From positions 4,999,001-5,063,000 of the forward strand of contig NC_092680.1 of assembly GCF_964355755.1 (NCBI RefSeq): a stretch of 64,000 nt of DNA, written 5' to 3'. Under the pieces are notes generated by a model. The model saw nothing but the letters and a program-made list of their open reading frames with translations, had not been told where the DNA came from and ran no database searches. Made by a program: the position numbers and the translations under genes. Below are positions 1,109-63,965 of the stretch, one piece after another (positions within the stretch are counted from its first letter, which is position 1; every line of letters starts with the position of its first letter). Source of the DNA: Antedon mediterranea. Lineage: Eukaryota > Echinodermata > Crinoidea > Comatulida > Antedonidae.

Positions 1109-4100
1109 CTCTTAAACCATTGAAACCAGGTTGGCCATTTTCCCCTTTCTGGCCTCTTCTTCCGGGTTTTCCCTGTATCCCTGGTTGTCCAGTATCACCT
1201 AATAGTAAATAAAAATCAATAAATTGTATGTTAAAGCATGCAATAAAATAATGTAGCAACACTTATTATACAAACTTAACAAAGTTTTAATATTAATACA
1301 AGGAGTAAAGAGTAATGATATCAAGTTGAATTTATTCCTACTTATTTACAAAAATGATGATGATGTTTAAACGCATATTCCCTGATCCATTGGTACCGGA
1401 AATGAACAACAGGAATCACGTCCACACCGTATGTTATACTGTATAATAATATTACGTAATTAACCTTATAAGTTCATCATGCATAAAGAAGATTAGCTAA
1501 TAAATAGCACCATCACATAATGGTGACAGGGGCTGGTCAAGCGCATCACAAGATGACAGTTTTTATTACTTTTGCTTTTCCGCTACTCCCCTGTTATACT
1601 TTATAAAAAAAGAAAATAAATAAATAATAATACGCCTACAAAAAATTATTTGCGCCGTTTCTTAAATTCTTTCTAGATAAAGCATAAAAGATTAGCCTAC
1701 CTTTATAACCCATTTCACCTGTTAAACCAGGCAGACCCGTTTCACCAATATCTCCTTTCATTCCACGTTTTCCTGAAAAATTGATCATTTTAAATTATGT
1801 AAAAAGAGGCCAAAAATTAATGGTAATGACAGAAACAAAATAAAGCTTAGATTTAAAATTAAGGATTTATATACAACGTTTGGTTGCGCATGCTCTGAAC
1901 ACACTTTCATTAAAACAATAACAGCTGTTGAGTTGAAGTTGATGCTGATACTTTTACCTTTTTCTCCCTTAGTACCTGGCTGTCCGATACCATTTAAACC
2001 TGGCAGCCCCATTTGTCCTGGCAGTCCGATATTTCCCTTTACTCCTTTAGGACCAGTTATTCCTCTCTGCCCCGGTGATCCTGGCGGCCCTGGTGGACCA
2101 GTTAGTTCACTAACATTTTCAGCAAGTTCAGTTAACTGTGCAACATAATGTCCATGAAGTCTCTGTTCAGCTTCGACAAGATACGCATTTATCTTATATT
2201 GTAATTCATTTGAAACATTCTGCAGATGTTTGAAATAATCATCATCTTTAACAGAGTCGATGTATTCAGAAACTATTTCTGTTTGAGTTTCATAAATGAC
2301 GTCAGGTGTCAATGAACTCTGTTTAGAAACTTCAAGAATAATTTGTTGTAACCGTTTGTTAAATGTCTCTGTAAAATTATTCAACTGAGTAAATACTTCA
2401 CCTGTCGGAGAAAAATATCAAGTGAATATTCAAAATTATACAAAACACTATTCTTGTAGTGGATGTTTTTTTATAACAAGCTTCTCTTACAAGTTGACCT
2501 GAACGCATGATCAACGCCATAAACACATTGTATTTCATCTACTGCTATAGCAGTATCTGTCTATATTTATATTTACTTTACGATTTGTTGATCCCACAAC
2601 ATAAACGTATCATTATCAACGCATATGTATTCATATTATTCTAAGAATTAATCTTTTAGAATGTTAACTGTTAATAATAAAGTGTTTTACTTTAAAAAAA
2701 TCAATCAATGGCGTTAGTTCTTAATTATTGATGTAGGCGACAGCTTAAAAATACTTTGTTTCATGAAATTTCAACTACACCGCCAAGCTCTTCTCTAATA
2801 ATAATTACCACCAATCCAGTTGTGACTTACTTGTATCGCATTGACATCTTCCAGTTTGGCCCTTTGGACCTGCCATACCTGGTAGTCCTTGAATTCCTAC
2901 TGGCCCAACTGGGCCTTTGCTGCCTGATTCTCCTTTCTGTCCGGTTATACCCGTACGTCCTAGTTCACCCTTTTCACCACGTTTTCCTTTATGCCCCTTT
3001 TCTCCCTTTTCACCTAAAATAATAAGTTTTACAAAAGTACAGGTGCATTTGTGTTTAACAATCCAGTTTGATAAAAATAGATTAAAAACATTTAGCTGGC
3101 GTCCTTCGCACTTTAAGTCTGTTTTCCACAGACAACAAAATACACGACATGGATAAATTTATATTGTTCTATTAGGTTCAATGAATTGGAACGATAACTT
3201 TCTATCATGATTAAATTACCATTTTCAAAGGTGAATCAACCTCAATAATCATAAAGTAGTATATTAGTATTATTTGTTTACTTATTTTGTTAAAAATAGT
3301 ATTGGTACATTGTTGTTTTATGGTATTATGATATTTCTGTATCTACAATTCTATCGTAAAAGAAATGTAATTCGAAATCGTGTAATTACTATACTGATGT
3401 CAGTTTAAAATACTGTACTACTGTATATACATCCGTTTATGCCATTATGTTATTTCAAGTACACCACAGAGACACGGAATGTTATTTAAAGAAATTTAGT
3501 AGACTGCATGCAAGTGCCGAACCGTCACCAAACAGGTAGGCCATGTGAGTGATGTGAAGTAAAGTCAGTGGGAAAAAATGCGAAGAAGGCAAATGTTTAT
3601 TTTCGTTTGGCCAATTAAGTAGTCAGCTGTAGTCCACTCTTGTAATAAAGTGATCTACACGTTCAATAGAAATTCCATTAAAAAGAAAGTAAACTTGTAT
3701 ACCATTAAATTCTACTTTCTTTTTAAATAAAAGAATTAAATTTAATTCTTCCCTTTTATAAAATGTAAGGTTATTTATTTAATTGATATAATAATCATGC
3801 TTTTAGAATATGAAAGTGAAAAAAAAAATAAATGGAACGTGTGGAACCCAAGCTTTAGGAAAGAAATAAGTAAGCAGCTGCATATGACCAACACATCTGC
3901 GACTAACAAACAAGGTTCTGCACAGTATAGGGAGATGATGATTTATAATTTCACATAATAAAATGTAGATGCATACAATTGAACCAAATATTTTACTCGC
4001 CGCTTCATCATATGATGTCTACATTTATAAATTTGTACGAGAATGATCTTTAATTTCATTTTTTAAATGGTGTAATCAAAGTGCCCCAAAAAGAAAGGTT

Positions 4101-13500: not shown

Positions 13501-14102
13501 TATAAATGCATTCAAAGATTTTGATAGAAAATATGCTCCTCATTATGTAAGTATTATTGTAGTTATTTTTTTAACAGTAAAATTTATAAAGTTTAACAGT
13601 AAGAGTAGTTTGAAATTCCTAGGAGATATCTAGTCCACTGCTTTGATTTTAAAACAGAAAATTTGACTCGTGCTGCTTTCTCTATAAAGCTCTATCTACA
13701 CTATCAAACTTTATGTGTTGTGCCCATAGACATGATGATGTCATATCACTACCACATTTGGGTATATCACTACCATAATTGGGCACATCACACTTTTTTT
13801 GTCAAACTAGTTTGATAGTGTAGACAGAGTTTTACCTCCACTTTTTTTTAAATGCTTCAGCTACTTCTGTACATAAGGATATTTTATTTGCGTTCAGTCA
13901 CTGTGCCACGATGATGAATGCATAATAAATAAATATTGTTTTCAATTAATGTCATATTATGAAATATTATATTATTTCTTTACAGATGGACTGGGGTGCC
14001 TTTGCTATAATGACACTACCATCAATCGTAATTCCTTTTCTACTATGGTACAGAAGCAAGACCAAATATGATGCACTCAGTACTAAAACAAAGAAAAACT
14101 AA
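10542..14102 (+). CDS. SSR2: Translocon-associated protein subunit beta (TRAP-beta)
   Basis: Four coding exons, 10542-10696, 11233-11446, 13469-13546 and 13986-14102, join in frame to 187 residues, close to the usual 183 or so. TRAP-beta is a single-pass ER membrane subunit of the TRAP complex beside the Sec61 channel. Seen here: signal peptide about 1-17, a lumenal domain with [27 protein letters not shown] and [11 protein letters not shown]-glycosylation sites at NVT and NFT, the STSAPGxG-like segment (YTSAPGEG), a membrane segment about 153-171 ([13 protein letters not shown]), and a short basic cytosolic tail ending TKKN. All are TRAP-beta hallmarks in order. The start ATG follows the acceptor directly, so a 5' UTR intron is inferred. 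Nothing appears damaged. Confidence 0.96.
11447..13468 (+). other. SSR2 second coding intron
   Basis: A 2.0-kb intron without coding exons. About 12410-12610 is more GC- and CpG-rich than its surroundings, with GC-rich palindromic steps (TAGGCCTAGGCC near 12590), and may be an unclassified repeat. I see no RNA gene. Confidence 0.45.
13686..13834. mobile_element. MITE family 1, copy 1 (SSR2 intron)
   Basis: About 150-bp element with terminal inverted repeats: left arm TCTACACTATCAAACT, right arm TTTGATAGTGTAGACAGAG. The core carries the alternating CATATCACTACCA and GTGCCCA / GGGCAC blocks shared by all copies. Confidence 0.8.
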
Positions 14103-21300: not shown

Positions 21301-24300
21301 AGTGTTTTATTGTTCTTATCAATAAAGTCAATATGGTTACTGCATATTTATAGTAGATTGTTGTTTATTTATTGACAGCTAACTGGGTTCAGAAACAACA
21401 ATATGATCCCCATTTACTATGTAAATATGAGCTGTGAGAAAGTTCAGATTATTTCAAATTATTGACGATGTAACACAAGCTTATGTTTAAGATATTGCAC
21501 ATTAACAAAGCAAAATATATACAAATACTGTACAGTATATTTAAAAAATGTAGTATCATATTTTTATTTATGTAGGCTGTATAAAAACTTACTGTACAAG
21601 TAGCCCCATGGCTAAAATGTTGTACAGTATAAATTACAGTACTGTAAAATTTACATAACTTTATAACAATAACAAAAATGCAAAAAAAAGCTACAACAAT
21701 ATCGCTATGTATCGCGTTCTATATGAACTATTGTTTAGCACATTAATTATTGTAGGGATGGGTAAATTTTTAAATCTCTTTCGGTTCTCGATTTAATTTT
21801 TGATATTTGACCTTGCTATTACTTCGGAGAACACAAGGAATACTACGAATAAGGGAGAGCAAATAATGGAACTTGTCCGAGTTTTCGATAAATGTATTTG
21901 TTTTAAACTTTGCTATAGAAAAATAAATGCACTATTGTACTGAAAGAAGCAAAACTTAAGTGCTGTAAAGGTTACCCTAAAACTTTTAATATGATTGACA
22001 TAGTTTCAGTTGTGCATGTTGTTCTTTGTCTTAGGATTTATTTTCAGTTTCAGTCTAAAAGATCGGAAAAAAAGGATAATATTTGAGGTTTGGTTCAAAA
22101 TGGAGTGATAATTAAAACACTTTGCATCACCACTGTCATTTAAAATTCCTTTCCTGACATTTAGTACTCCATTAGTTTATTAAACTTTCATCTTTGACAG
22201 GAGAACAGCTCACAATCTTTAATTTACAAAGGCAATATCCAATACTGTCCTTTCTTCTGATCTCTTGTTACCTTTGACAATGTCTGTGGGTCACGTAAGA
22301 TCGCTCCGTAATAGGAACCAAATATCACATCATTACCATCCAGAACTGCCCGCTTTGCAAAAGTAACACGCATTTGTTGACCAAAGTTATGACATTGCTA
22401 TATTGTTTTTTTTTATACAGTATCATCGAGTAGACGAAGGCTGCTGTCTCCAAATAGTACTGTTAGCAATGGAATTAAAGTGCTTGAAATCAGATGTAAA
22501 AACTTCAAAGTTCATACATTTAGTTTCAAGTTTACACAGAAAAAAGAAAACAAAACTGTAAGTCAACTTGTGTAAGCTCTGTCTACACTATCAAACTAGT
22601 TTGACAAAAAAATTGTGATGTGCCCAAATATAGTAGTGATATGCCCAAATATAGTAGTTATATGCCCAAATATAGTAGTAATATGCCCAAATATGGCGGT
22701 GATAGGACATCATCATATCCATACAGTATATTGGCGCATCACATTTTTGTCGCACTAGTTTGATAGTGTAGACAGGACTTTAAGTTTGGTGGGACTACTT
22801 TGATCTTTTATAGTCATGGTGGCCCACAAGCAAACGGCTACTTCTAAAAAATTAATGGAAAAAAGTAATGTTACAACATCGGGTTGTGCCCATAAAACAA
22901 CAAGGGCTTTGAACCTACCCAGTCTGTCCCACAAGAATGTTTCTGGGATTTTTTTTTTTAATATCCAAAACCCCTGTTTCAAAAGTGGTTACAAAATATT
23001 ATTATTATATAAACTGTTTACAGTATTTATGTTAAGGTTAAATGTCAAAAGAGTTTAAACTCAAATATGGGAAGGAAAACTCATTAGTGTTATATCCATG
23101 GTGCTAAGTATAGCTTTGTAAAGGTTAAATATGGAACGCAAAGTAAGCAATGTTTATTCTGTATATTGTTTAACTGAAACATTTTTTTTTTAACAATGTT
23201 TTTTTTCTAGATTGTGAACACAATCCTTCATCATGCATTTCCAAAAAAGCTTGAGCTTTTGTTTGCATTTTCCTTTCAACTGCCAACAAATTCTCAACCT
23301 TTGTCCCCGACTGTCAACAATTCAGAAAAGAACCACAGCAAATCAAACGGACGATCAATCAACTTGACCAAGTTCTTTCGCACACCTCCCGTAGTGCCGC
23401 CGTCCCCAACACTTTCTCTGAGTGAGGAGAGGCCTATCCGGACGCCTCAGTACCGCAAAGTTTCAGACTGGGAAGCTGAAATCAAGCGAACCAATGGCAT
23501 TAATCTTAGGGTTACATTGGCCAATCAGGCCTTCAAGATTTCTGACAGGTATGGTTATAAAAAATCTTAATGTTGATCTCAGTGCTGCTATACCGTTTTG
23601 TTTTGCATTTACAGGTATAACACCATGTAATTTTAAGGGAAAGATTTCTCCTTATTTATAAAGGGTGACCCTAAACAGCATATGCTGACAATCAAGGGGC
23701 CCTTTTAATGACCTTTAGGACCCAACTAAGTGTTCCCCTTAATATTTAAGTTTTACCAGAATAGGGGTTGGCTGTAGTTTTAAAACTTAGCATACCCCTC
23801 CTTCATTCATTTTATGGAAAAGAGTCCCTTATTAAATAGAGTTCCAAATATAGAAATTATATTTTACTGTATATAATTGGAAATATAGTCACCGAAATCT
23901 CTAACATGTTTTAATATCTATACAGTCTTCCAGAGTACTTTGTTATACCAATGGGATGTAAAGCCAAAGACAAGGATTCGTTACATGATGGTGATCTCCA
24001 TCACGCTGCTACACACTTTGAAGGTGGCAGAGTTCCGGTAGGTATACACTATTGGTAAATGGCCTAAGTGGGTTGGTCCTTGTAACCATGATACTAGATC
24101 ACATATGGTGCCTATTGACTGTATTCAGTTAGCACTTATGGACATTGCATGTTGATGCTTAAAACAATATCACTCCTGCATCCAACTATCACTATTGTTT
24201 GTATATATATATGCATTTTTTTTTAGCAGTCACTATTTAAGTGATAGTGGTAGGCTTGGCTTGTAATAATAATAATTTCATTGCTCAAATTATTTGACAA

Positions 24301-27300: not shown

Positions 27301-30300
27301 GAACAACATCATTCTATCATTGTTATACAATTTCTCTTCATCTTTATATAGATGTTAAAATCCTCACGCTCCTCAAGATTAAAAGCTATTGTATCTATTA
27401 ATTATATGCGAATAGTAATATAAACATCTCTGCCAGCCTTTTGCATGCTAAATGACATCATATTAAGCCCCGTCCGAAAATTGTTTCCTTTTTGCAGTGC
27501 ATTTGCATTTCCTGAATAAAGCATAATAATCCAGTTACAAGATGCTTTACATTTATATTTTTATTAATTGAAATTAGCGGTTAGGTTTAACAACGGTTGT
27601 GGTTGTAATTGTTATTTTTAGAAACTTGTTTTAACCTTCATTAGATGTTTAATATACATTTACCAAAATGATCTTTTTTTAGAAACATTTCTTACAGATT
27701 GTTTTGGTATTTTGATTTTAACTGCAATAAATTGCATTTTTTATTCATCTAATCATGCCAATCATCCAGACCATTGGTGATCATGTGACGCAATTAACAA
27801 TGAAAGAATATAAATATGTTGAGTTTCAGTGGCATTTTGAGTGAAAATTATTACTGTAAAGGCCAATTTACAATTACGAGCGGGAACGGTAAACAGAAAT
27901 CGCACATAGAAATCTGTATCTGGGTGTTTCCAAAGTTTGACATTCAAAGTCTAATAATCAATGCTAAATAGTATATCATGGTACTAAAAAAAACCAATAT
28001 ACACATTAAATCTGTTGTCGCCATGTAACAGCATTTTATCGTATCAACACCAAATTCACATTATCTATCCCTCTCCCTCTATATTATATGTTGTTATAAA
28101 ACTGTTTAAATTGGATTTTTAATAGCTTTTGGGATCTATCCTCAGCAGAAACCACCCGTATGCTCCGCACTTTGTGTACTGGAAATTGTCATAACAAATA
28201 ACTTAAATTCTATATTTTTTATTACCGTTACCGATCATCTGTGTAAATTGGCCTTAAAGCTGTAACTTTCTAAATATTGAAATGTTTTATTCTTATTTTT
28301 AAACAGAAACATTAAAGGAGTTTTGGAATTCAGACCCAAGGTGGTTGTCGAGTGTAGAGGCGACAAAATGGTTGCAGTATGTTCGGTAAGAACATTTTAA
28401 TTTAACAGTAAAGAATAATATGTGTAATGCTATGTGTAATTGAATATCGAGGCCTAAGACACTAACGAAAAAATAATAATTTATGTGTGTAATAATTGAT
28501 TTGACCTAGTGATACTGACTAATGTTCTGAAGAATACATACTTTATGCTTGACTAAATTAACTTCTTAAGCTCTGTCTACACTATCAAACTTTATGTGAA
28601 AAAAACAGTTGTGCCCATATATGGACATGATAATGTCCATATATCACTACCATATTATTTAGGAATATCACTACCGTACCATACGTGGGCGCATCATACC
28701 TATTTTAATAGACAGAGCTTAAAGAGTACATTTATAGCAAGGAAGCAAAGTAGATCAGAAGGATGAACACATCCTGATTGACTTTCCTTGGACGATTACC
28801 CTCAGGAGGTTTTCCAAGTTTAACTTGGCACCAGAAAGAACTAACCAGTGAATCACCTGTATTATAGGTGTAGTCCCACTTTCACAGCATTTTTACAGTA
28901 ATAAAATTATGAGACTGCTAAAACGTGGCTAAAAACACAAGTACTGTTTTTTGTTGAAGGTTCCATTACAACTGTGTTTGCCATTTACATGATAACTTTT
29001 TATATAGTATAGAAGAGATATTGATTTAACTATAGCACCTCCCACAGGTTACTCTCACTAACGTTGATACAGAATCATCCATTTACTTATTTCCATTTAT
29101 GAGTTATAGCCAGGGTGCAATTTTTTTTTTTACATAAGTTGGGGACCCCTTATGTGAAAGATAGCTGAACTTCTTCCTAAATATAACTAAACATTACTCT
29201 CTAAATAATCTCTCTTGCACTATAAAGTAAAAAGAAGTTGCTCATGTGATTTAAACCCTATACATAGACATGTAAAGTCCATAGTCTAATCTACTCGACT
29301 ACACAGACGGCTTGACAGAAAGCATTTGCATTAGCAAATTGTAGTTAGCTCAATTTTTACATCACTAATGACATTAATGCAAAACTTATGTACAAAAAGA
29401 AATGTTTTTTTTTCTAGAGCTTGTCTTTCAACTGCAGCATATGTAGCAACAACCATTGCACATGAACAGAAGTCTGTAGTTCTTAAAGGTAATCAAATAA
29501 TCATATTGATATTTATATAATTGAAATACATTTGTATTTTGTTGTTTTGTTTCATGCTGTTTATATTGACAAGAAGGCAAATTTCAAGCTATGAGTTTGA
29601 ACAAATAAATTGAATTAATGACTATATAAAACTTGTCCACATATGGCAAGCCGTAATTCAACGTTGTGATCTTTATTTGATCATCATCAGGAATGTATAT
29701 TGTCCATTTTTTTGGCTATAAATTAGCTTAGATTAGATTTTTTCAACATATCACTATAATTAATAGCAATGTAAACAATTAGAACTTCTGTTTCATTAAA
29801 AGGAAACAATTTCTGCTTTATTGTATTATTTATTTTGTGAGTTTTTCTTATAACTGAAATGTTTTTTTTTTAGAGTTTACTGGTCGAGACTTTTCTTGTA
29901 TAATCTCCTCATTAGTACAGCTAATGCTGGACCCATATGCAAGAACACAGATGGGATTCCAAAGTCTTGTCCAGCGTGAATGGGTCATTGCGGGTCATCC
30001 ATTCCTAACAAGATGTGGCCATATATGTCCATCAGATGGTCAAGAGGTAAATTTTGTTTTCTGTATTTATCATTGACCCTCATTGATTTGATGAACCACC
30101 ACCAACGGTGAAGTAGATAGCCTATTGTGATTGTTGTATCTTGGTAAGTGATGTGCCCATGGACATGATGATGTCATATCACTACCATATTTTGGCATAT
30201 CAACACCATATTTGGTCACATCACACTTTTTTTGTCAAACTAGTTTAATAGTGTGATGTTTAATTTTAAAATAAAACAGCCTTATTGTTTTTATTTTAGT

Positions 30301-31229
30301 CGCCTGTGTTTTTACTTTTCCTGGATTGTGTCTTTCAACTCATGGAACAGTTTCCCGACGTATTTGAGTTTACAGATACGTATCTGATAACTCTATGGGA
30401 TAGTACCCATATCGGTGTCTTTGGTACGTTCATATTCAACAACGAGAAACAGCGAGTGCAAACATGTATGCGTGGAGAAGATGGAAAAACGATTAAATTA
30501 CCAACAGTCTGGGCTTGGACGCTGCAATACAAAATGGAGGACCTTGCCTTGTTTAACAATCCGTTGTATGTTGCGAAACATGATGTTTCAGATAACTTTA
30601 TAAGTTCAAACACGATCGGATTTGAGGATAGCACGCAACTTGGTTGCAATCCGGGCGTTTATCGTAACTCTATGCATCTCTCCGAGCAAACAGCTGCAAT
30701 GTTTGAAGACTATGCAAAAATGAAACGAACTTTCAGCCTTCAACCTGGTAGAAAGAAACGCGGCGGTAACAGCGGAGCATCACGCCAGGTGTTTGAGGTA
30801 CCGGAAACACAGCTGGAATTAATTGTGCCGCGAATCAGTGGACCGTACATTAAATTATGGATGCGATCCTACCTTCGTTGGATACCCAGTATACATATAG
30901 TTGGTGGCGGTCTACCTACGCAATATCAACAGCAATGTAAAGTCGTCGATGAGATACAACAATTACGTGACCAAGTTGACCAGCTTCAGTCTAATTCCCC
31001 GTCAAGAGTGGAGAAACGGAGAAGCCGATTCTTTTTCTCTTGCGATAATGAAAGAGATGGAATGCACGGGGCTGACGTGGTTAGTTCTGCATTTCCGTTT
31101 ACAACTAGCGACCTAGCTTTTATTGGAGGTGACCGCAGATCTTTCATTGGAACTCCATTAGCCTTATTTTTGAGAGGTCAAAGTTTATTAGATGCTGATA
31201 CAAGTGCACTTGAAGGATTGGATGATTAA
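15325..31229 (+). CDS. MTMR10: Myotubularin-related pseudophosphatase, MTMR10/12 type
   Basis: Fourteen exons: 15325-15390, 15964-16018, 17377-17516, 19597-19672, 22421-22557, 23211-23548, 23926-24037, 24901-24989, 25276-25406, 26434-26535, 28307-28385, 29418-29488, 29874-30046, 30300-31229, giving 832 residues in frame. Residues about 40-165 are a PH-GRAM domain (LYCTNFKISF); the myotubularin domain follows (SDWEAEIKRT, LPEYFVIP, FWCWSHPNGS, RWLSSVEATKWLQYV, SLVQLMLDPY, GFQSLVQREW, ADEV-like helix). In active members this loop is HCSDGWDRT; here the Cys is Glu466 and the Arg is Phe472 (KEFTGRDFS), so no catalysis is expected. Loss of both residues plus the C-terminal SSAFPF and FIGTPLALFL motifs point to the MTMR10/11/12 group, which act as adaptors for active myotubularins on PI3P/PI(3,5)P2 membranes. 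MTMR12 identity cannot be excluded. Confidence 0.92.
15391..15963 (+). repeat. Cluster of AGGCCT-containing palindromic words
   Basis: First intron of the MTMR10-like gene. TAGGCCTA, AGGCCTAGGCC, TAGGCTGG and related words recur many times between about 15430 and 15830. Scattered AGGCCTA words occur elsewhere in the window too. Confidence 0.5.
16941..17050 (+). mobile_element. Degenerate tRNA-like SINE head
   Basis: GGCTAGTGGTCTGTAGGTCA followed by GAGTTCGAGTCTC (B-box-like, 17028-17040) resembles a tRNA-derived SINE head. No acceptor stem pairing is obvious. It lies in the second intron of the MTMR10-like gene. Confidence 0.45.
17579..17640. repeat. GGGACAC/TATTAAGG repeat, short copy
   Basis: CCTATTAAGGAGACAC and a TGTCCCCT partner. 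The same word family recurs at 18280-18360 and 19085-19385 in the same intron. Confidence 0.45.
18576..18807. repeat. Minisatellite, three copies of about 60-86 bp
   Basis: CAATTTTCACTATATATCTC-type starts occur at about 18578, 18666 and 18745. Each is followed by GTACGTCCT/GTACTTCT and by CCATTATCATAAGGAATAC. The copies shorten to the right by loss of internal sequence. It lies in an intron of the MTMR10-like gene. Confidence 0.75.
19085..19385. repeat. Cluster of CTATTAANGGGACAC words
   Basis: CTATTAAAGGGACAC, GTTAAAGGGACACC, CTATTAATGGGACAG and CTATTAATGGGGAC recur over 300 bp in the third intron of the MTMR10-like gene. Word order is irregular, which suggests a decayed interspersed repeat with internal tandem structure. 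Confidence 0.5.
19673..22420 (+). other. Fourth intron of the MTMR10-like gene
   Basis: A 2.7-kb intron. It contains the MITE family 2 copy at 20819-21011 and simple AAT repeats near 20442-20460. Otherwise AT-rich DNA with no gene. Confidence 0.5.
20819..21011. mobile_element. MITE family 2, copy 1
   Basis: Terminal inverted repeats TTAAAAGGCCAATTTACAC and GTGTAAACTGGCCTTAAA bound a 193-bp element. Two more copies with the same ends occur at 27857-28259 and 47018-47413. Confidence 0.75.
22573..22782. mobile_element. MITE family 1, copy 2, with internal tandem expansion
   Basis: Ends TAAGCTCTGTCTACACTATC and TTTGATAGTGTAGACAGGAC. Inside, ATATGCCCAAATATAGTAGT repeats four times at about 22 bp. 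A perfect CArG box CCAAATATGG lies at 22687-22696. In the fifth intron of the MTMR10-like gene. Confidence 0.85.
24749..24879. mobile_element. MITE family 1, copy 3
   Basis: Ends TTAAGCTCTGTCTACACTAT and ACTAGTTTGATACTATAGAC. CArG box CCATATATGG at 24801-24810. It finishes only about 20 bp before the acceptor of the exon at 24901, so it supplies sequence next to the polypyrimidine tract. Confidence 0.85.
25086..25231. mobile_element. MITE family 1, copy 4
   Basis: Ends TAAAGCTCTGTCTACACTAT and ATATAGACAGAGCTTTA, an almost perfect TAAAGCTCTG / CAGAGCTTTA pair. CArG box CCATATATGG at 25171-25180. It lies between exons 8 and 9 of the MTMR10-like gene. Confidence 0.85.
26991..27078. repeat. Polypyrimidine (C/T) tract
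   Basis: About 88 bases that are almost all C and T (CCCTTTCC, CTCCTCTGTCCCC, CCTTCCCTCTCCTCC) on the plus strand, with few purine interruptions, in an intron of the MTMR10-like gene. Confidence 0.8.
27857..28259. mobile_element. MITE family 2, copy 2
   Basis: About 400 bp with TAAAGGCCAATTTACA at the left and TGTGTAAATTGGCCTTAAA at the right. The subterminal words GAACGGTAAACAG / ACCGTTACCGATC are also inverted. It ends 47 bp before the exon at 28307. Confidence 0.75.
28566..28722. mobile_element. MITE family 1, copy 5
   Basis: TTAAGCTCTGTCTACACTAT at the left and AATAGACAGAGCTTAA at the right, both flanked by TTAA. CArG box CCATATATGG at 28615-28624. The right arm is partly deleted. Confidence 0.8.
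29121..29314 (-). mobile_element. SINE family 3, copy 1 (tRNA-derived)
   Basis: Read on the minus strand: GTGTAGTCGAGTAGATTAGA (A-box region), GGGTTTAAATC (B-box-like), GAGCAACTTCTTTTTA, TATTTAGGAAGAAGTTC, AAGGGGTCCCCAACTTATGT, then an A-rich tail. The same order occurs in plus orientation at 46603-46797. Confidence 0.8.
30148..30256. mobile_element. MITE family 1, copy 6 (left end missing)
   Basis: Starts inside the element at GTGATGTGCCCAT and keeps GTCAAACTAGTTTAATAGTG at the right. CArG box CCATATTTGG at 30206-30215. It lies in the last intron of the MTMR10-like gene, ending about 45 bp before the final exon. Confidence 0.75.
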
Positions 31230-33548: not shown

Positions 33549-33699
33549 CACTAGTTACATTTTATGATTCTGCGCATGTCAATTTTGATATAGTTAGCCA
33601 GTTATGCAATAATATTGCCATATATGCACATCTATTGTGTTATCATCATCTTATAGAGCCCTAGTAACTACCTAAGTCATAAAATAAAAGGGTTTTTCA
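33549..33699. repeat. Diverged left flank of the palindromic array
   Basis: Contains GATTCTGCGCATGTCAATT and the block ATAATATTGCCATATATGCA...GTGTTATCATC (33606-33655). The latter reappears in direct orientation at about 40848-40893, right of the array, so the array is bracketed by copies of a longer ancestral unit. Confidence 0.7.
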
Positions 33700-36600
33700 A
33701 AAAATAGAAAATTTTCGACCTTTTTATTTTTTGATAAAACTGGTTACTATAGCACAATTGACATGCGCAGAACCCATTATTCGCCTCTGCGCATGTTTAT
33801 TATGCAATAGTAACCATTTATGTCCAAATTAAAAGGGTCGAAAATCGGCCATTTTTCGAAATTTTTCCTATACTATAGTACAGGGATTTTTAAAAAAACG
33901 GCAAATTTTCGACATTTTTATTTTTCGATAAAACTGGTTACTATAGCACAATTGACATGCGCAGAACCCATTATTCGCTTCTGCGCATGTTTATTATGCA
34001 ATAGTAACTATTTATGTCAAAACTGGTTACCATAGAACAATTGATATGCGCAAAACCCATTATTCGTCTCTGCGCATGTTTATTATGCAATAGTAACCAT
34101 TTATGTCAAAAAATAAAAGGGTCGAAAATCGGCTATTTTTCGAACATTTTCCTGTACTATAGTACAGGGAATTTTCAAAAAATGGCAAGTTTTCGACCTT
34201 TTTATTTTACGATAAAACTGGTTACTATAGCACAATTGACATGCGCAGAACCTATTATTCGCCTCTGCGCATGTTTATTATGCAATAGTAACCATTTATG
34301 TCAAAAAATAAAAGGGTCGAAAATCGGTCATCTTTCGAAAATTTCCCTGTACTATAGTACAGGGATTTGTCAAAAAATGGCAAATTTTCGACCTTTTTAT
34401 TTTTCGATAAAACTGGTTACTATAACACAATTGACATGTGCAGAACCCATTATTCGCCTCTGCGCATGTTTATTATGCAATAGTAACCATTTATGTCAAA
34501 AAATAAAAGGGTCGAAAATCGGTCATTTTTCGAAAATTTTCCTGTACTATAGTACAGGGATTTTTCAAAAAATGGCAAATTTTCGACCTTTTTATTTTTG
34601 GATAAAACTGGTTACTATAGCAACATTGACATGCGCAGAACCCATTATTCACCCTGTGCGCATGTTTATTATGCAATAGTAACCATTTATGTCAAAACTG
34701 GTTACCATAGCACAATTGACATGCGCAGAACCCATTATTCGTCTCTGCGCATGTTTATTATGCAATAGTAACCATTTATGTCAAAAATAAAAGGGTCGAA
34801 AATCGGCCATTTTTCGAACATTTTCCTGTACTATAGTACAGGGAATTTTCAAAAAATTGCAAGTTTTCGACCTTTTTATTTTTCGATAAAACTGGTTACT
34901 ATAGCAACATTGACATGCGCAGAACCCATTATTCACCCTGTGCGCATGTTTATTATGCAATAGTAACCATTTATGTCAAAACTGGTTACCATAGCACAAT
35001 TGACATGCGCAGAACCCATTATTCGTCTCTGCGCATGTTTATTATGCAATAGTAACCATTTATGTAAAAAATAAAAGGGTCGAAAATCGGCCATTTTTCG
35101 AACATTTTCCTGTACTATAGTACAGGGAATTTTCAAAAAATGGCAAGTTTTCGACCTTTTTATTTTACGATAAAACTGGTTACTATAGCACAATTGACAT
35201 GCGCAGAACCTATTATTCGCCTCTGCGCATGTTTATTATGCAATAGTAACCATTTATGTCAAAAAATAAAAGGGTCGAAAATCGGTCATTTTTCGAAAAT
35301 TTTCCTGTACTATAGTACAGGGATTTTTAAAAAAATGGCAAATTTTTGACCTTTTTATTTTTCGATAATACTGCTTACTATAGCACAATTGACATTCGCT
35401 GAACCCATTATTCGTCTCTGCGCATGTTTATGCAATAGTAACTATTTATGTCAAAACTGGTTACCATAGCACAATTGACATGCGCAGAACCCATTATTCG
35501 TCTCTGCGCATGTTTATTATGCAATAGTAACCATTTATGTCAAAAAATAAAAGGGTCGAAAATCGGTCATCTTTCGAAAATTTCCTGTACTATAGTACAG
35601 GAATTTGTCAAAAAATGGCAAATTTGCGACCTTTTTATTTTTCGATAAAACTGGTTACTATAGCACAATTGACATGCGCAGAACCCATTATTCGCCTCTG
35701 CGCATGTTTATTATGCAATAGTAACCATTTATGTCAAAAAATAAAAGGGTCGAAAATCGGTCATTTTTCGAAAATTTTCCTCTACTATAGTACAGGGATT
35801 TTTAAAAAAATGGCAAATTTTTGACCTTTTTATTTTTCGATAAAACTGCTTACTATAGCACAATTGACATTCGCAGAACCCATTATTCGTCTCTGCGCAT
35901 GTTTATTATGCAATAGTAACTATTTATGTCAAAACTGGTTACCATAGCACAATTGACATGCGCAGAACCCATTATTCGTCTCTGCGCATGTTTATTATGC
36001 AATAGTAACCATTTATGTCAAAAAATAAAAGGGTCGAAAATCAGCCATTTTTCGAATTTTTTCCTGTACTATAGTACAGGGATTTTTCAAAAAAATGGCA
36101 AATTTTCGACACTTTTATTTTTCGATAAAACTGGTTACTATAGCACGATTGACATGCGTAGAACACATTAGTCGTCTCTGCGCATGTTTATTATGCAATA
36201 GTAACCATTTATGTCAAAACTGGTTACCATAGCACAATTGACATGCGCAGAACCAATTATTCGTCTCTGCACATGTTTATTATGCAATAGTAACCATTTA
36301 TGTCAAAAATAAAAGGGTCGAAAATCGGCCATTTTTCTAACATTTTCCTGTACTATAGTACAGGGATTTTTCAAAAAATGGCAAATTTTCGACCTTTTTA
36401 TTTTACGATAAAACTGGTTACTATAGCTCAATTGACATGCGCAGAACCCATTATTCGCCTCTGCGCATGTTTATTATGCAATAGTAACCATTTATGTCAA
36501 AAAATAAAAGGGTCGAAAATCGGTCATCTTTCGAAAATTTCCCTGTACTATAGTACAGGGATTTGTCAAAAAATGGCAAATTTGCGACCTTTTTATTTTT

Positions 36601-39600
36601 CGATAAAACTGGTTACTATAGCACAATTGGCATTCGCAGAACCCATTATTCGTCTCTGCGCATGTTTATTATGCAATAGTAACTATTTATGACAAAACTG
36701 GTTACCATAGCACAATTGACATGCGCAGAACCCATTATTCGTCTCTGCGCATGTTTATTATGCAATAGTAACCATTTATGTCAAAAAATAAAAGGGTCGA
36801 AAATCAGCCATTTTTCGAATTTTTTCCTGTACTATAGTACAGGGATTTTTCAAAAAATGGCAAATTTTCGACCCTTTTATTTTTCGATAAAACTGGTTAC
36901 TATAGCACGATTGACATGCGCAGAACCCATTAGTCGTCTCTGCGCATGTTTATTATGCAATAGTAACCATTTATGTCAAAACTGGTTACCATAGCACAAT
37001 TGACATGCGCAGAACCCATTATTCGTCTCTGCGCATGTTTATTATGCAATAGTAACCATTTATGTCAAAAATAAAAGGGTCGAAAATCGGCCATTTTTCG
37101 AACATTTTCCTGTACTATAGTACAGGGATTTGTCAAAAAATGGCAAATTTTCGACCTTTTTATTTTTCGATAAAACTGGTTACTATAACACAATTGACAT
37201 GCGCAGAACCCATTATTCGCCTCTGCGCATGTTTATTATGCAATAGTAACCATTTATGTCAAAAATAAAAGGGTCGAAAATCGGCCATTTTTCGAACATT
37301 TTCCTGTACTATATAATAGTACAGGGATTTGTCAAAAAATGGCAAATTTTCGACCTTTTTATTTTTCGATAAAACTGGTTACTATAACACAATTGACATG
37401 CGCAGAACCCATTATTCGCCTCTGCGCATGTTTATTATGCAATAGTAACCATTTATGTCAAAAAATAAAAGGGTCGAAAATCGGTCATTTTTCGAAAATT
37501 TTCCTGTACTATAGTACAGGGATTTTTAAAAAAATGGCAAATTTTTGACCTTTTTATTTTTCGATAATACTGCTTACTATAGCACAATTGACATTCGCAG
37601 AACCAATTATTCGTCTCTGCGCATCTTTATTATGCAATAGTTACTATTTATGTCAAAACTGGTTACCATAGCACAATTGACATGCGCAGAACCCATTATT
37701 CGCCTCTGCGCATGTTTATTATGCAATAGTAACCATTTATGTCAAAAAATAAAAGGGTCGAAAATCGGTCATCTTTCGAAAATTTCCCTGTACTACAGTA
37801 CAGGGATTTGTCAAAAAATGTCAAATTTTCGACCTTTTTATTTTTCGATAAAACTGGTTACTATAGCACAATTGACATACGCAGAACCCATTATTCGCCT
37901 CTGCGCATGTTTATTATGCAATAGTAACCATTTATGTCAAAAAATAAAAGGGTCGAAAATCGGTCATTTTTCGAAAATTTTCCTCTACTATAGTACAGGG
38001 ATTTTTAAAAAAATGGCAAATTTTTGACCTTTTTATTTTTCGATAAAACTGCTTACTATAGCACAATTGACATTCGCAGAACCCATTATTCGTCTCTGCG
38101 CATGTTTATTATGCAATAGTAACTATTTATGTCAAAACTGGTTACCATAGCACAATTGACATGCGCAGAACCCATTATTCGTCTCTGCGCATGTTTATTA
38201 TGCAATAGTAACCATTTATGTCAAAAAATAAAAGGGTCGAAAATTAGCCATTTTTCGAATTTTTTCCTGTACTATAGTACAGGGATTTTTTAAAAAATGG
38301 CAAATTTTCGACCCTTTTATTTTTCGATAAAACTGGGGACTATAGCACAATTGACATTCGCAGAACCCATTATTCGTCTCTGCGCATGTTTATTATGCAA
38401 TAGTAACTATTTATGTCAAAACTGGTTACCATAGCACAATTGACATGCGCAGAACCCATTATTCGTCTCTGCGCATGTTTATTATGCAATAGTAACCATT
38501 TATGTCAAAAAATAAAAGGGTCGAAAATCAGCCATTTTTCGAATTTTTTCCTGTACTATAGTACAGAGATTTTTCAAAAAAATGGCAAATTTTCGACCCT
38601 TTTATTTTTCGATAAAACTGGTTACTATAGCACGATTGACATGCGCAGAACCCATTAGTCGTCTCTGCGCATGTTTATTATGCAATAGTAACCATTTATG
38701 TCAAAACTGGTTACCATAGCACAATTGACATGCGCAGAACCCATTATTCGTCTCTGCACATGTTTATTATGCAATAGTAACCATTTATGTCAAAAATAAA
38801 AGGGTCGAAAATCGGCCATTTTTCTAACATTTTCCTGTACTATAGTACAGGGATTTTTCAAAAAATGGCAAATTTTCGACCTTTTTATTTTACGATAAAA
38901 CTGGTTACTATAGCACAATTGACATGCGCAGAACCCATTATTCGCCTCTGCGCATGTTTATTATGCAATAGTAACCATTTATGTCAAAAAATAAAAGGGT
39001 CGAAAATCGGTCATCTTTCGAAAATTTCCCTGTACTATAGTACAGGGATTTGTCAAAAAATGGCAAATTTGCGACCTTTTTATTTTTCGATAAAACTGGT
39101 TACTATAGCACAATTGACATTCGCAGAACCCATTATTCGTCTCTGCGCATGTTTATTATGCAATAGTAACTATTTATGACAAAACTGGTTACCATAGCAC
39201 AATTGACATGCGCAGAACCCATTATTCGTCTCTGCACATGTTTATTATGCAATAGTAACCATTTATGTCAAAAATAAAAGGGTCGAAAATCGGCCATTTT
39301 TCTAACATTTTTCTGTACTATACAGGGATTTTTCAAAAAAATGGCAAATTTTCGACCTTTTTATTTTACGATAAAACTGGTTACTATAGCACAATTGACA
39401 TGCGCAGAACCCATTATTCGCCTCTGCGCATGTTTATTATGCAATAGTAACCATTTATGTCAAAAAATAAAAGGGTCGAAAATCGGTCATCTTTCGAAAA
39501 TTTCCCTGTACTATAGTACAGGGATTTTTCAAAAAATGGCAAATTTGCGACCTTTTTATTTTTCGATAAAACTGGTTACTATAGCAACATTGACATGCGC

Positions 39601-40795
39601 AGAACCCATTATTCACCCTCTGCGCATGTTTATTATGCAATAGTAACTATTTATGTCAAAACTGGTTACCATAGCACAATTGACATGCGCAGAACCCATT
39701 ATTCGTCTCTGCGCATGTTTATTATTATGCAATAGTAACCATTTATGTCAAAAAATAAAAGGGTCGAAAATCGGCCATTTTTCGAAATTTTTCCTGTACT
39801 ACAGTACAGGGATTTTTCAAAAAATGGCAAATTTTCAACCTTTTTATTTTTCGATAAAACTGGTTACTATAGCACAATTGACATGCGCAGAACCTATTAT
39901 TCGTCTCTGCGCATGTTTATTATGCAATAGTAACCATTTATGTCAAAACTCGTTACCATAGCACAATTGACATGCGCAGAACCCATTATTCGTCTCTGCG
40001 CATGTTTATTATGCAACAGTAACCATTTATGTCAAAAATAAAAGGGTCGAAAATCGGTCATCTTTCGAAAATTTTCCTGTACAGGGATTTTTCAAAAAAT
40101 GGCAAATTTTTGACCTTTTTATTTTTTGAGAAAACTGGTTACTATAGTACAATTGACATGCGCAGAACCCATTATTCGTCTCTGCGCATGTTTATTATGC
40201 AATAGTAACCATTTATGTCAAAACTGGTTACCATAGCACAATTGACATGCGCAGAACCCATTATTCGTCTCTGCGCATGTTTATTATGCAATAGTAACCA
40301 TTTATGTAAAAAATAAAAGGGTCGAAAATGGGCCATTTTTCGAACATTTTCCTGTACAGGGATTTTTCAAAAAATGGCAAATTTTTGACCTTTTTATTTT
40401 TCGATAAAACTGGTTACTATAGTACAATTGACATGCGCAGAACCCATTATTCGCCTCTGCGCATGTTTATTATACAATAGTAACCATTTATGTCAAAAAA
40501 TAAAAGGGTCGAAAATCGGTCATTTTTCGAAAATTTTCCTGTACTTAACCATTTATGTCAAAACTGATTACCATAGCACAATTGACAGTTCAGGGATTTT
40601 TTCAAAAAATGGCCGATTTTCGACCTTTTTATTTTTCAATAAAACTGGTTTATAGATAGCACAATTGACATGCGCAGAACCCATTATTCGCCTCTGTGCA
40701 TTTTTATTATGCAATAGTAACCATTTATGTCAAAAGTGGTTACTATAGCCCAATTGACATGCGCAGAACCCATTATTCGACTCTGCGCATGTTTT
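33700..40795. repeat. Two-module palindromic satellite array
   Basis: About 7.1 kb built from two foldback modules. Module A (about 130 bp) has arms GTAACC...AAAATAAAAGGGTCGAAAAT and its near reverse complement ATTTTCGACCTTTTTATTTT...GGTTAC around the palindrome CCTGTACTATAGTACAGG. Module B (about 74 bp) has 30-bp arms that include ACATGCGCAGA and TCTGCGCATGT around a 14-base spacer. Units are A-B (about 195 bp) or A-B-B' (about 284 bp); B' is marked by GGTTACCATAGC where B has GGTTACTATAGC. I count about 27 A centres from 33868 to 40540. Open frames in both strands follow from the 195-bp (65-codon) period and are not genes. Not CRISPR: no unique spacers. Confidence 0.93.
35450..39200. repeat. 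Higher-order duplication inside the array
   Basis: Blocks repeat with private variants. About 35.45-36.08 kb matches 37.65-38.29 kb at an offset of about 2202 bp (shared CCTCTACTATAG centre and ACTGCTTACTATAG). About 35.93-36.69 kb matches 38.41-39.18 kb at an offset of 2487 bp (shared TTTCTAACATTTT and TCTCTGCACATG). The two offsets differ by one A-B-B' unit (285 bp). Confidence 0.8.
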
Positions 40796-40799
40796 TTTT

Positions 40800-41262
40800 T
40801 TAAACAAAAATTGGCACAATGTATACTTTTTAAAATTCAATAATTATGCGATAATATTGCCATATGTGCACATATATTGTGTTATCATCTTAAGTGAAAA
40901 AATAAAAGAGTCGAAATTTCGCTATTTTTTCGAAAATTTACCTGTACTATAGTATAGTAGGAATTTTTTCGAAAAATGGTCAAAATAGACCCATAGTAAC
41001 TAGATATTTCAAAAAATAAAACGGTCAAATTTAGCCAAAATTTCTTCCTTTCTAATTTTCGACATTTGGTTACTATATCATAAATGACATGCACAGAACA
41101 TATATTATGATTCTGCGCATGTCAATTATGTTATAGTAACCAGTTATGTCAAAAAATGAAAGGGTTGAAATATAGCCATTTTTCGAAAATTTGCCAAATT
41201 TCCTCCCTTAAAATTTTTTGACATAACTGAAATCTATAACATAATTGACATGCTCAGTAGAA
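40800..41262. repeat. Diverged right flank of the palindromic array
   Basis: Two or three degenerate units: GTACTATAGTATAGTAGG near 40943, TGATTCTGCGCATGTCAATT near 41109, and GTCAAAAAATGAAAGGGTTG near 41148. Similarity to the array core decays to the right and ends about 50 bp before the ATR poly(A) signal. Confidence 0.7.
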
Positions 41263-41308
41263 ATAGTTCAAACTGATATTTCAAAGTACAGTAATATAAA
41301 AGATTCTT

Positions 41309-41450: not shown

Positions 41451-63965
<22,515 letters not shown>

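Follow-up and report, generated by a model that had tools for sequence, protein, structure and literature searches.

How chromosomes acquire their dispersed short satellite arrays is still unsettled, and the carriers described in the literature that we found are few. The question is raised here by a 64,000-nucleotide stretch of the genome of the crinoid Antedon mediterranea (assembly GCF_964355755.1, contig NC_092680.1, here C11, positions 4,999,001-5,063,000), referred to below as the window, which contains an array of two palindromic modules, A and B. The whole genome comprises 354 Mb in 18 contigs. A first-pass annotation, made from the letters of the window, had described the array and suggested that its transcripts might feed RNA interference (RNAi) or that it might act as a chromatin boundary; its dispersed, transposon-linked nature was missing from that account. 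We put at roughly two in three the probability that the window array is a member of a dispersed family of short satellites which has spread, at least partly, as the cargo of a non-autonomous transposon with terminal inverted repeats (TIRs), designated X. The array is better described as mobile repeat DNA than as a source of regulatory RNA.

Single-sequence profile models split positions 33,690-40,820 of the window strictly into the two modules that the first-pass annotation had recognised, and the segmentation into A, B and a variant, B′, is consistent throughout. The A module, centred at CCTGTACTATAGTACAGG, measures 106 bp between B modules, shorter than the 130 bp or so first given for it. 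The B modules follow a period of 89 bp, within which lies a foldback of 74 bp with 30-bp arms around ACATGCGCAGA, as previously described. With 28 full A modules there are 27 A-A intervals. Eleven measure 184-200 bp and the other 16 measure 275-288 bp, and the two-valued spacing proposed earlier (A-B or A-B-B′) therefore describes every interval. B is matched 47 times, in 17 pairs and 13 singles (30 runs in all); this count includes the degenerate copies at 40,641-40,818 as well as an old-type module in the flank, at 41,062. Mean divergence between B modules is 0.056 inside the window vs 0.089 to other loci, and 44 of the 46 window B modules have their nearest neighbour in the window itself, so the array has been homogenised within its locus. 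At three other loci (L004, L016 and L017) divergence within the locus is not below that between loci. The window array thus consists, as satellite DNA is expected to, of head-to-tail monomers in multimeric units homogenised per locus.

The modules occur far beyond the window. Genome-wide searches of the kind that the first-pass annotation had proposed gave 1183 occurrences of the exact 18-bp A palindrome and 657 + 613 matches to a B segment of 25 bp; the backward control had no match. Among the first 50 matches listed, the A sites lie in small scattered clusters between 0.4 and 23.7 Mb of C1, and this pattern of short, scattered arrays differs, over the listed part of C1, from that of a classical long heterochromatic satellite. 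Twenty loci were fetched from C1 (L001-L020); 15 of them hold AB arrays, with 1-9 B modules per run and B periods of 82, 89, 108 or 122 bp, and the remaining five hold only old diverged arrays. These old arrays share the A module; between its copies they carry, on our reading, one of two cores, termed O, which is an old B-type core, and D, which differs from it. Most young arrays, that of the window included, are flanked by D or O modules. Taking the 15 C1 AB loci together with the window, D cores stand on both sides in nine of 16 arrays; their orientation is the same on both sides in all nine, and the AB modules run opposite to D in five and alike in four. The constant orientation of D and the free direction of AB indicate that the young arrays sit inside standing old arrays, either way round. 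Some further features of these loci are recorded for their own sake. A 460-bp sequence flanks the AB array of L019 as a direct repeat (L019:730-1158 and L019:3060-3519, 84% identity) and has only these two matches in a whole-genome search; it may reflect an old tandem duplication of the site or be a trace of array growth. A 515-bp gap in the AB array of L035 is a nested insertion with apparent inverted ends (GGATTGCTATAA... and ...TTATAGCAATCC). The 8-mer TAGGCCTA occurs 39 times in the window and L001-L020 vs 1.5 times expected from base composition, an excess of about 25-fold; the motif is known from echinoderms.

X was recognised as a non-repeated stretch beside the array, common to four C1 loci. 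A search with it returned 48 matches at about 40 scored places, and at all of the best eight of these (L012 among them) the 3′ side of X is followed, within about 230 bp, by the start of an A/B array. In most of the eight, X begins directly after ...CCCTGTACTATA, which is half of the A palindrome; in L019 the array is followed by about 70 bp, then by an inverted copy of the start of X, and then by TATAGTACAGGG. The TIRs of X are 30 bp long (CTGCCCYGTCATGAAAGAACGACTCAACTG), with 0-1 errors per end in L036-L040, and its body without the array is 1.3 kb. Searching with 32 bases of the X end gave 44 matches at ≤3 mismatches, several of them as facing pairs. The two-ended copies L036-L040 (4597, 941, 3365, 5165 and 1328 bp, respectively) are each bounded by a target duplication of 4 bp, which reads TATA in L036-L039 and AAAA in L040. 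Terminal inverted repeats and a target duplication of fixed length are the marks of a cut-and-paste (TIR) transposon.

Four of these five copies hold A/B modules inside, and L040 is alone in having no array. The tandem array is located between the 5′ and 3′ parts of X and outside the 30-bp TIRs, and the cargo ranges from a single B and a single A between the X arms, in the 941-bp element L037, which is the simplest form seen, to more than 4 kb of array. The same junction between X and array recurs in L025, L032, L034 and L035, on three contigs. Since intact two-ended, minimal (L037), array-free (L040) and expanded forms are all at hand, the path from captured unit to satellite can be traced copy by copy. 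Other identities for X were considered. A Helitron or Helentron carrier, for which insertion at TT without target duplication would be expected, was dropped given the TATA or AAAA duplicated at the five copies. Capture of host DNA from L031 is weakened by a facing TIR 8.5 kb away from the X end there, in a pair that lacks a matching duplication. Tandem units of a miniature inverted-repeat transposable element (MITE), joined at the TA within A, were rejected as the array edges, on our reading, lack one common unit phase. Separately, L026 (about 1440-1480) and L052 (about 520-560) each have a very short palindrome, CCAGGGAGTTGTA...TACAACTCCCTGG, inserted in X or in the flank of X; it is possibly a very small mobile element in its own right. 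L052 also contains, between AB modules, a 174-codon open frame (2304-2828, minus strand) with a C-terminal Cys motif, CSKCKQPRLNKNHTQYYGNWYC, and no Pfam match.

L036-L039 sit in an A palindrome, at or a few bases from its TATA centre, and rejoining their flanks restores that palindrome. The result is exact in L037; in L039 the left arm has diverged, and L036 and L038 have a few additional bases at the centre. A search for half of A fused to the X end gave 31 matches, of which 30 are among the 44 TIR matches. The flank is A-like at 22 of the 28 X ends read, 19 by pattern and three by eye (L032, the 3′ end of L036 and the 5′ end of L038). The 28 comprise 29 end rows minus two near-TIR matches that are internal (in L031 at index 1372 and in L040 at index 567, both on the minus strand), leaving 27 ends, and the end of L052, which lies in a truncated half A and was scored as not A-like. 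Because some loci had been picked for holding A, the fairer figures for target preference are 30/44 and, among ends belonging to the 44 matches, 19/25. In the 300 bp outside the X ends, D is found at 15 of 25 and B at one of 25, which argues that the landing sites seen are old arrays and not young cargo. With the A palindrome at the insertion sites and A/B modules inside four of the copies, the palindrome is both the usual landing site and the cargo.

Several observations weigh against carriage by X. X is present at only five of the 15 C1 AB loci, and X-free spread may thus be the main route. A search at E 0.01 found no X sequence in the 64-kb window, so that descent of the window array from X is argued from its sequence and grammar. 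X lacks an array between its ends in L040, in two copies in L033 and in L031; in L033, L046 and L048 the B modules run opposite to X. L040 lies in unrelated DNA, and the ends that are not A-like comprise both of its own together with those of L031, L041, L046 and the truncated L052. With one B in 25 outer flanks, the ends read do not demonstrate insertion of X into AB arrays themselves. The facing ends L031 and L041, 8.5 kb apart, have no matching 4-bp duplication on our reading, the last 0.8 kb between them being unfetched. No transposase with X ends was found, no genome-wide search for one having been made; the X of L040 has no open reading frame (ORF) of more than 112 codons from stop to stop, and Pfam gave no match for two ORFs of L052 and two of L031.

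A rival account is that the satellite dispersed without a carrier, its AB arrays moving by recombination (homologous or break-induced), by gene conversion or as extrachromosomal circles, and X being a passenger that favours A palindromes. The lack of X at ten of the 15 C1 AB loci, and in the window, speaks for it. The edges of the arrays fit as well: of eight right edges that adjoin D, the A is whole in three (L001, L007 and L035) and broken close to its centre in four (L005, L008, L009 and L012), while one passes through B (L017), and the equal orientation of D on both sides combined with the free direction of AB is what recombination at a symmetric A would give. Against it stand the four two-ended elements that enclose A/B modules between TIRs with the target duplication outside both, an array following X at each of the best eight of the roughly 40 places, and identical X/array junctions on different contigs. 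We regard carrier-free dispersal as a serious but clearly less probable competitor, and continue to favour spread at least partly as cargo of X.

The B′ modules provide a second line of evidence on the history of the window array. The diagnostic C proposed for B′ in the first-pass annotation is present in 16 of the 17 second-of-pair modules, the exception being the truncated last B at 40,732. Of the 17 first-of-pair B modules 16 have T at this site, as do 12 out of the 13 lone ones, the remaining module of each kind being unreadable there; the C form is absent from every readable lone or first B, and B′ never stands alone in the window. In the genome the exact 29-mer of B′ occurs 77 times at 22 places on nine contigs, 14 of these occurrences being within the window, and the T form 1254 times. 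Window B′ modules differ on average by 0.048 from B′ elsewhere vs 0.058 from the other B modules beside them, which indicates that B′ is a real and distinct lineage, as had been supposed, and that it predates this array. Further loci with several B′ copies (L025 on C4, L032 on C3, L048 on C6, L050 on C5 and L051 on C11) show the same mixture of A-B and A-B-B′, in some cases with A-B-B′-B′. The idea that B′ is kept in a fixed place holds for all 16 C copies of the window but not more widely: across 48 annotated sequences, window included (L021, L022, L029 and L030, which duplicate other loci, and L052 were omitted), B′ comes later in a run 71 times and first nine times. Its order is therefore for the most part inherited along with larger blocks, without being strictly kept. 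An inverted junction of two B modules (AAGTAACCACTTTTGACATAAATGG), common to L004, L005, L012, L017 and L018 (five of 21 sequences), is another marker of blocks copied between loci.

These data also speak to another account of the locus, in which slippage and unequal exchange among the old modules of the flanks produced the array on the spot, and nothing was imported. Old A, D and O modules do flank the array, and its B modules are homogenised as local growth would predict. The closer kinship of window B′ to B′ elsewhere than to adjacent B, and the presence of the same grammar on other contigs, imply instead that the units pre-existed and were imported or exchanged, and of all the explanations considered we give purely local growth the least credence. 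B′ is shared across loci and the window modules are homogenised, so ordered blocks were copied from one locus to another and, in the window, subsequently made uniform.

The edges of the window array are set out in Table 1. The array that the first-pass annotation placed at 33,700-40,795 is real; overlooked were the older, diverged modules of the same superfamily that embed it on both sides, with the D core on the right oriented like that on the left. Its left edge is a broken A, in which the old left arm ends, on our reading, in AAAAGGG. We suggest the following course of events. An ancestral X would have captured a B-A unit, which slippage or unequal exchange would have expanded into an array of A-B and A-B-B′ units. 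Copies of X with their AB cargo would then have moved to other chromosomes, landing in A palindromes. As the A sequence is common to array and target, recombination from A to A can remove the X arms, and an AB array would then be left on its own within an old array, the state in which the window array is found. Broken A modules and truncated edges are the expected outcome of losing them by such recombination or by deletion. We infer from its sequence that the window array may once have had X ends, since lost. A bolder proposal, which we put forward tentatively and think possible rather than probable, is that X seeds itself: by inserting at the TATA centre of a palindrome and carrying that same palindrome in arrayed form, it would lay down new landing sites and a safe haven distant from genes, while recombination between cargo and landing site would strip its ends and leave bare arrays behind.

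Table 1. Features in and around the A/B array, in window coordinates
Feature	Position	Strand	Remark
Left flank, old-type modules: end of an O/B-like palindrome and one D core	33567..33690	-	D model match at 33,574-33,677, minus strand
Left junction, rearranged A lacking the palindrome centre: AAAATAAAAGGG of the old left arm abuts TTTTTCAAAAAA of an inner right arm	33690..33735	+	Sequence reading
Young A/B array, units A-B and A-B-B′	33736..40818	+	28 full A (~106 bp) and 46 B-type modules (89-bp period)
B′ module, example, second of a pair	34694..34782	+	GGTTACCATAG
A module, example around CCTGTACTATAGTACAGG	34782..34887	+	Kind of site that holds transposon X at other loci
Degenerate right edge: broken A, truncated last B	40495..40818	+	
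Right flank, old-type D, A and O modules	40805..41281	-	
Exon of a myotubularin-related gene	30300..31229	+	Pfam
PI3-kinase exon	42789..43124	-	Pfam; presumably ATR-like
Stretch shared with L009	32372..32662		291 bp
Tandem repeats close together	52203..52430, 52798..53067		110-bp and ~100-bp units
21-bp minisatellite arrays	13742..13791, 22615..22694, 30175..30224, 41758..41798, 43914..43982, 51534..51583		CATATCACTACCATATTTGGG or reverse complement

The modules do form strong hairpins, as had been predicted: in the three tried, folding lies beyond that of 200 shuffles (z of -5.1 for one B′, -10.4 for one B and -12.0 for one A). This, and the position of the array between a myotubularin-related exon on the plus strand and a PI3-kinase exon on the minus strand, could suit a functional element whose hairpin transcripts feed RNAi, or a boundary between two neighbouring genes. 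Tests on B gave no support to selection on the hairpins. Divergence in the 39 window B modules that measure 89 bp is equal at stem and non-stem positions (0.0244 vs 0.0256). Among the 56 stem cells that have changed, just one is compensatory; the other 55 are one-sided, and 40 of these break a pair. The test is weak for A, where pairing in one register gave 32 of 52 pairs and the arms differ by small gaps. We also discarded the notion that old B-type modules were formerly better paired than young ones, the copy in the window flank pairing at 91% over 32 bp vs 27 of 30 pairs formed by the arms of the young B consensus. Rfam returned no family at gathering score, and the number and length of B modules differ between loci. 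With no sign that the fold is kept, the RNAi or boundary role is left without support, and a functional element of either kind seems to us very improbable. The hairpin shape is inherited from the modules, and no selection on it is seen in the array. Nor does the spacing of about 195 bp, remarked upon earlier as close to a nucleosome repeat, point to chromatin: the figure is that of one A plus one B, and at other loci the spacing differs with the number of B modules and with B periods of 82, 108 or 122 bp, so the link is unsupported.

The remaining entries of Table 1 are incidental to the array. Six sites in the window have short arrays of a 21-bp minisatellite unit in variant forms. The stretch shared with L009 of C1 is 100% identical there, overlaps a long inverted repeat and, by its sequence, looks like a very young foldback or MITE copy.

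Among known systems, transposons that carry satellites have already been described. Scalvenzi and Pollet reportedly treated, in 2014, a MITE driving satellite DNA, the title pointing to an inverted-repeat element linked to a satellite. The Tetris foldback transposon of Drosophila virilis, with the TIR-220 satellite, carries tandem repeats that are also found as satellite-like arrays (PMC4079207). Like X, Tetris is a non-coding DNA transposon with modular, rearranged copies and target duplications, but its repeats lie inside long TIRs and its duplication is of 8-10 bp (PMC4079207). X has 30-bp TIRs flanking one central array, not the long repeat-containing TIRs of a foldback element, a 4-bp duplication and, as its usual target, the palindrome of its own repeat. 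The Cg_HINE non-autonomous Helentrons of the Pacific oyster hold short satellite-like central repeats between two fixed flanking modules, genome-wide (PMC7492417). They resemble the X arrays in occurring in both orientations and in having a central array between fixed flanks, and differ in preferring TT and making no target duplication, where X has TIRs, a 4-bp duplication and a palindromic target (PMC7492417). The AT-rich 4-bp target duplications and short TIRs of Sola2 DNA transposons are as in X, the TIRs of the families described there being 12-21 bp vs 30 bp in X (PMC3627910). Sola2 may therefore be a weak lead from sequence, and X is not filed there because no transposase was found, no search for a Sola2 transposase having been made.

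A literature search with the 12-mer GTACTATAGTAC returned no papers, and searches on palindrome-targeting and foldback transposons, superfamilies with 4-bp duplications and echinoderm satellites, Repbase-type databases lying outside them, yielded, among the papers listed, no transposon with target and cargo from one palindromic repeat. Next to Tetris and Cg_HINE, the arrangement in A. mediterranea is a variant of the transposon-carried satellite in which both derive from one repeat; if upheld, it would tie the target choice of a transposon directly to the growth of a satellite.

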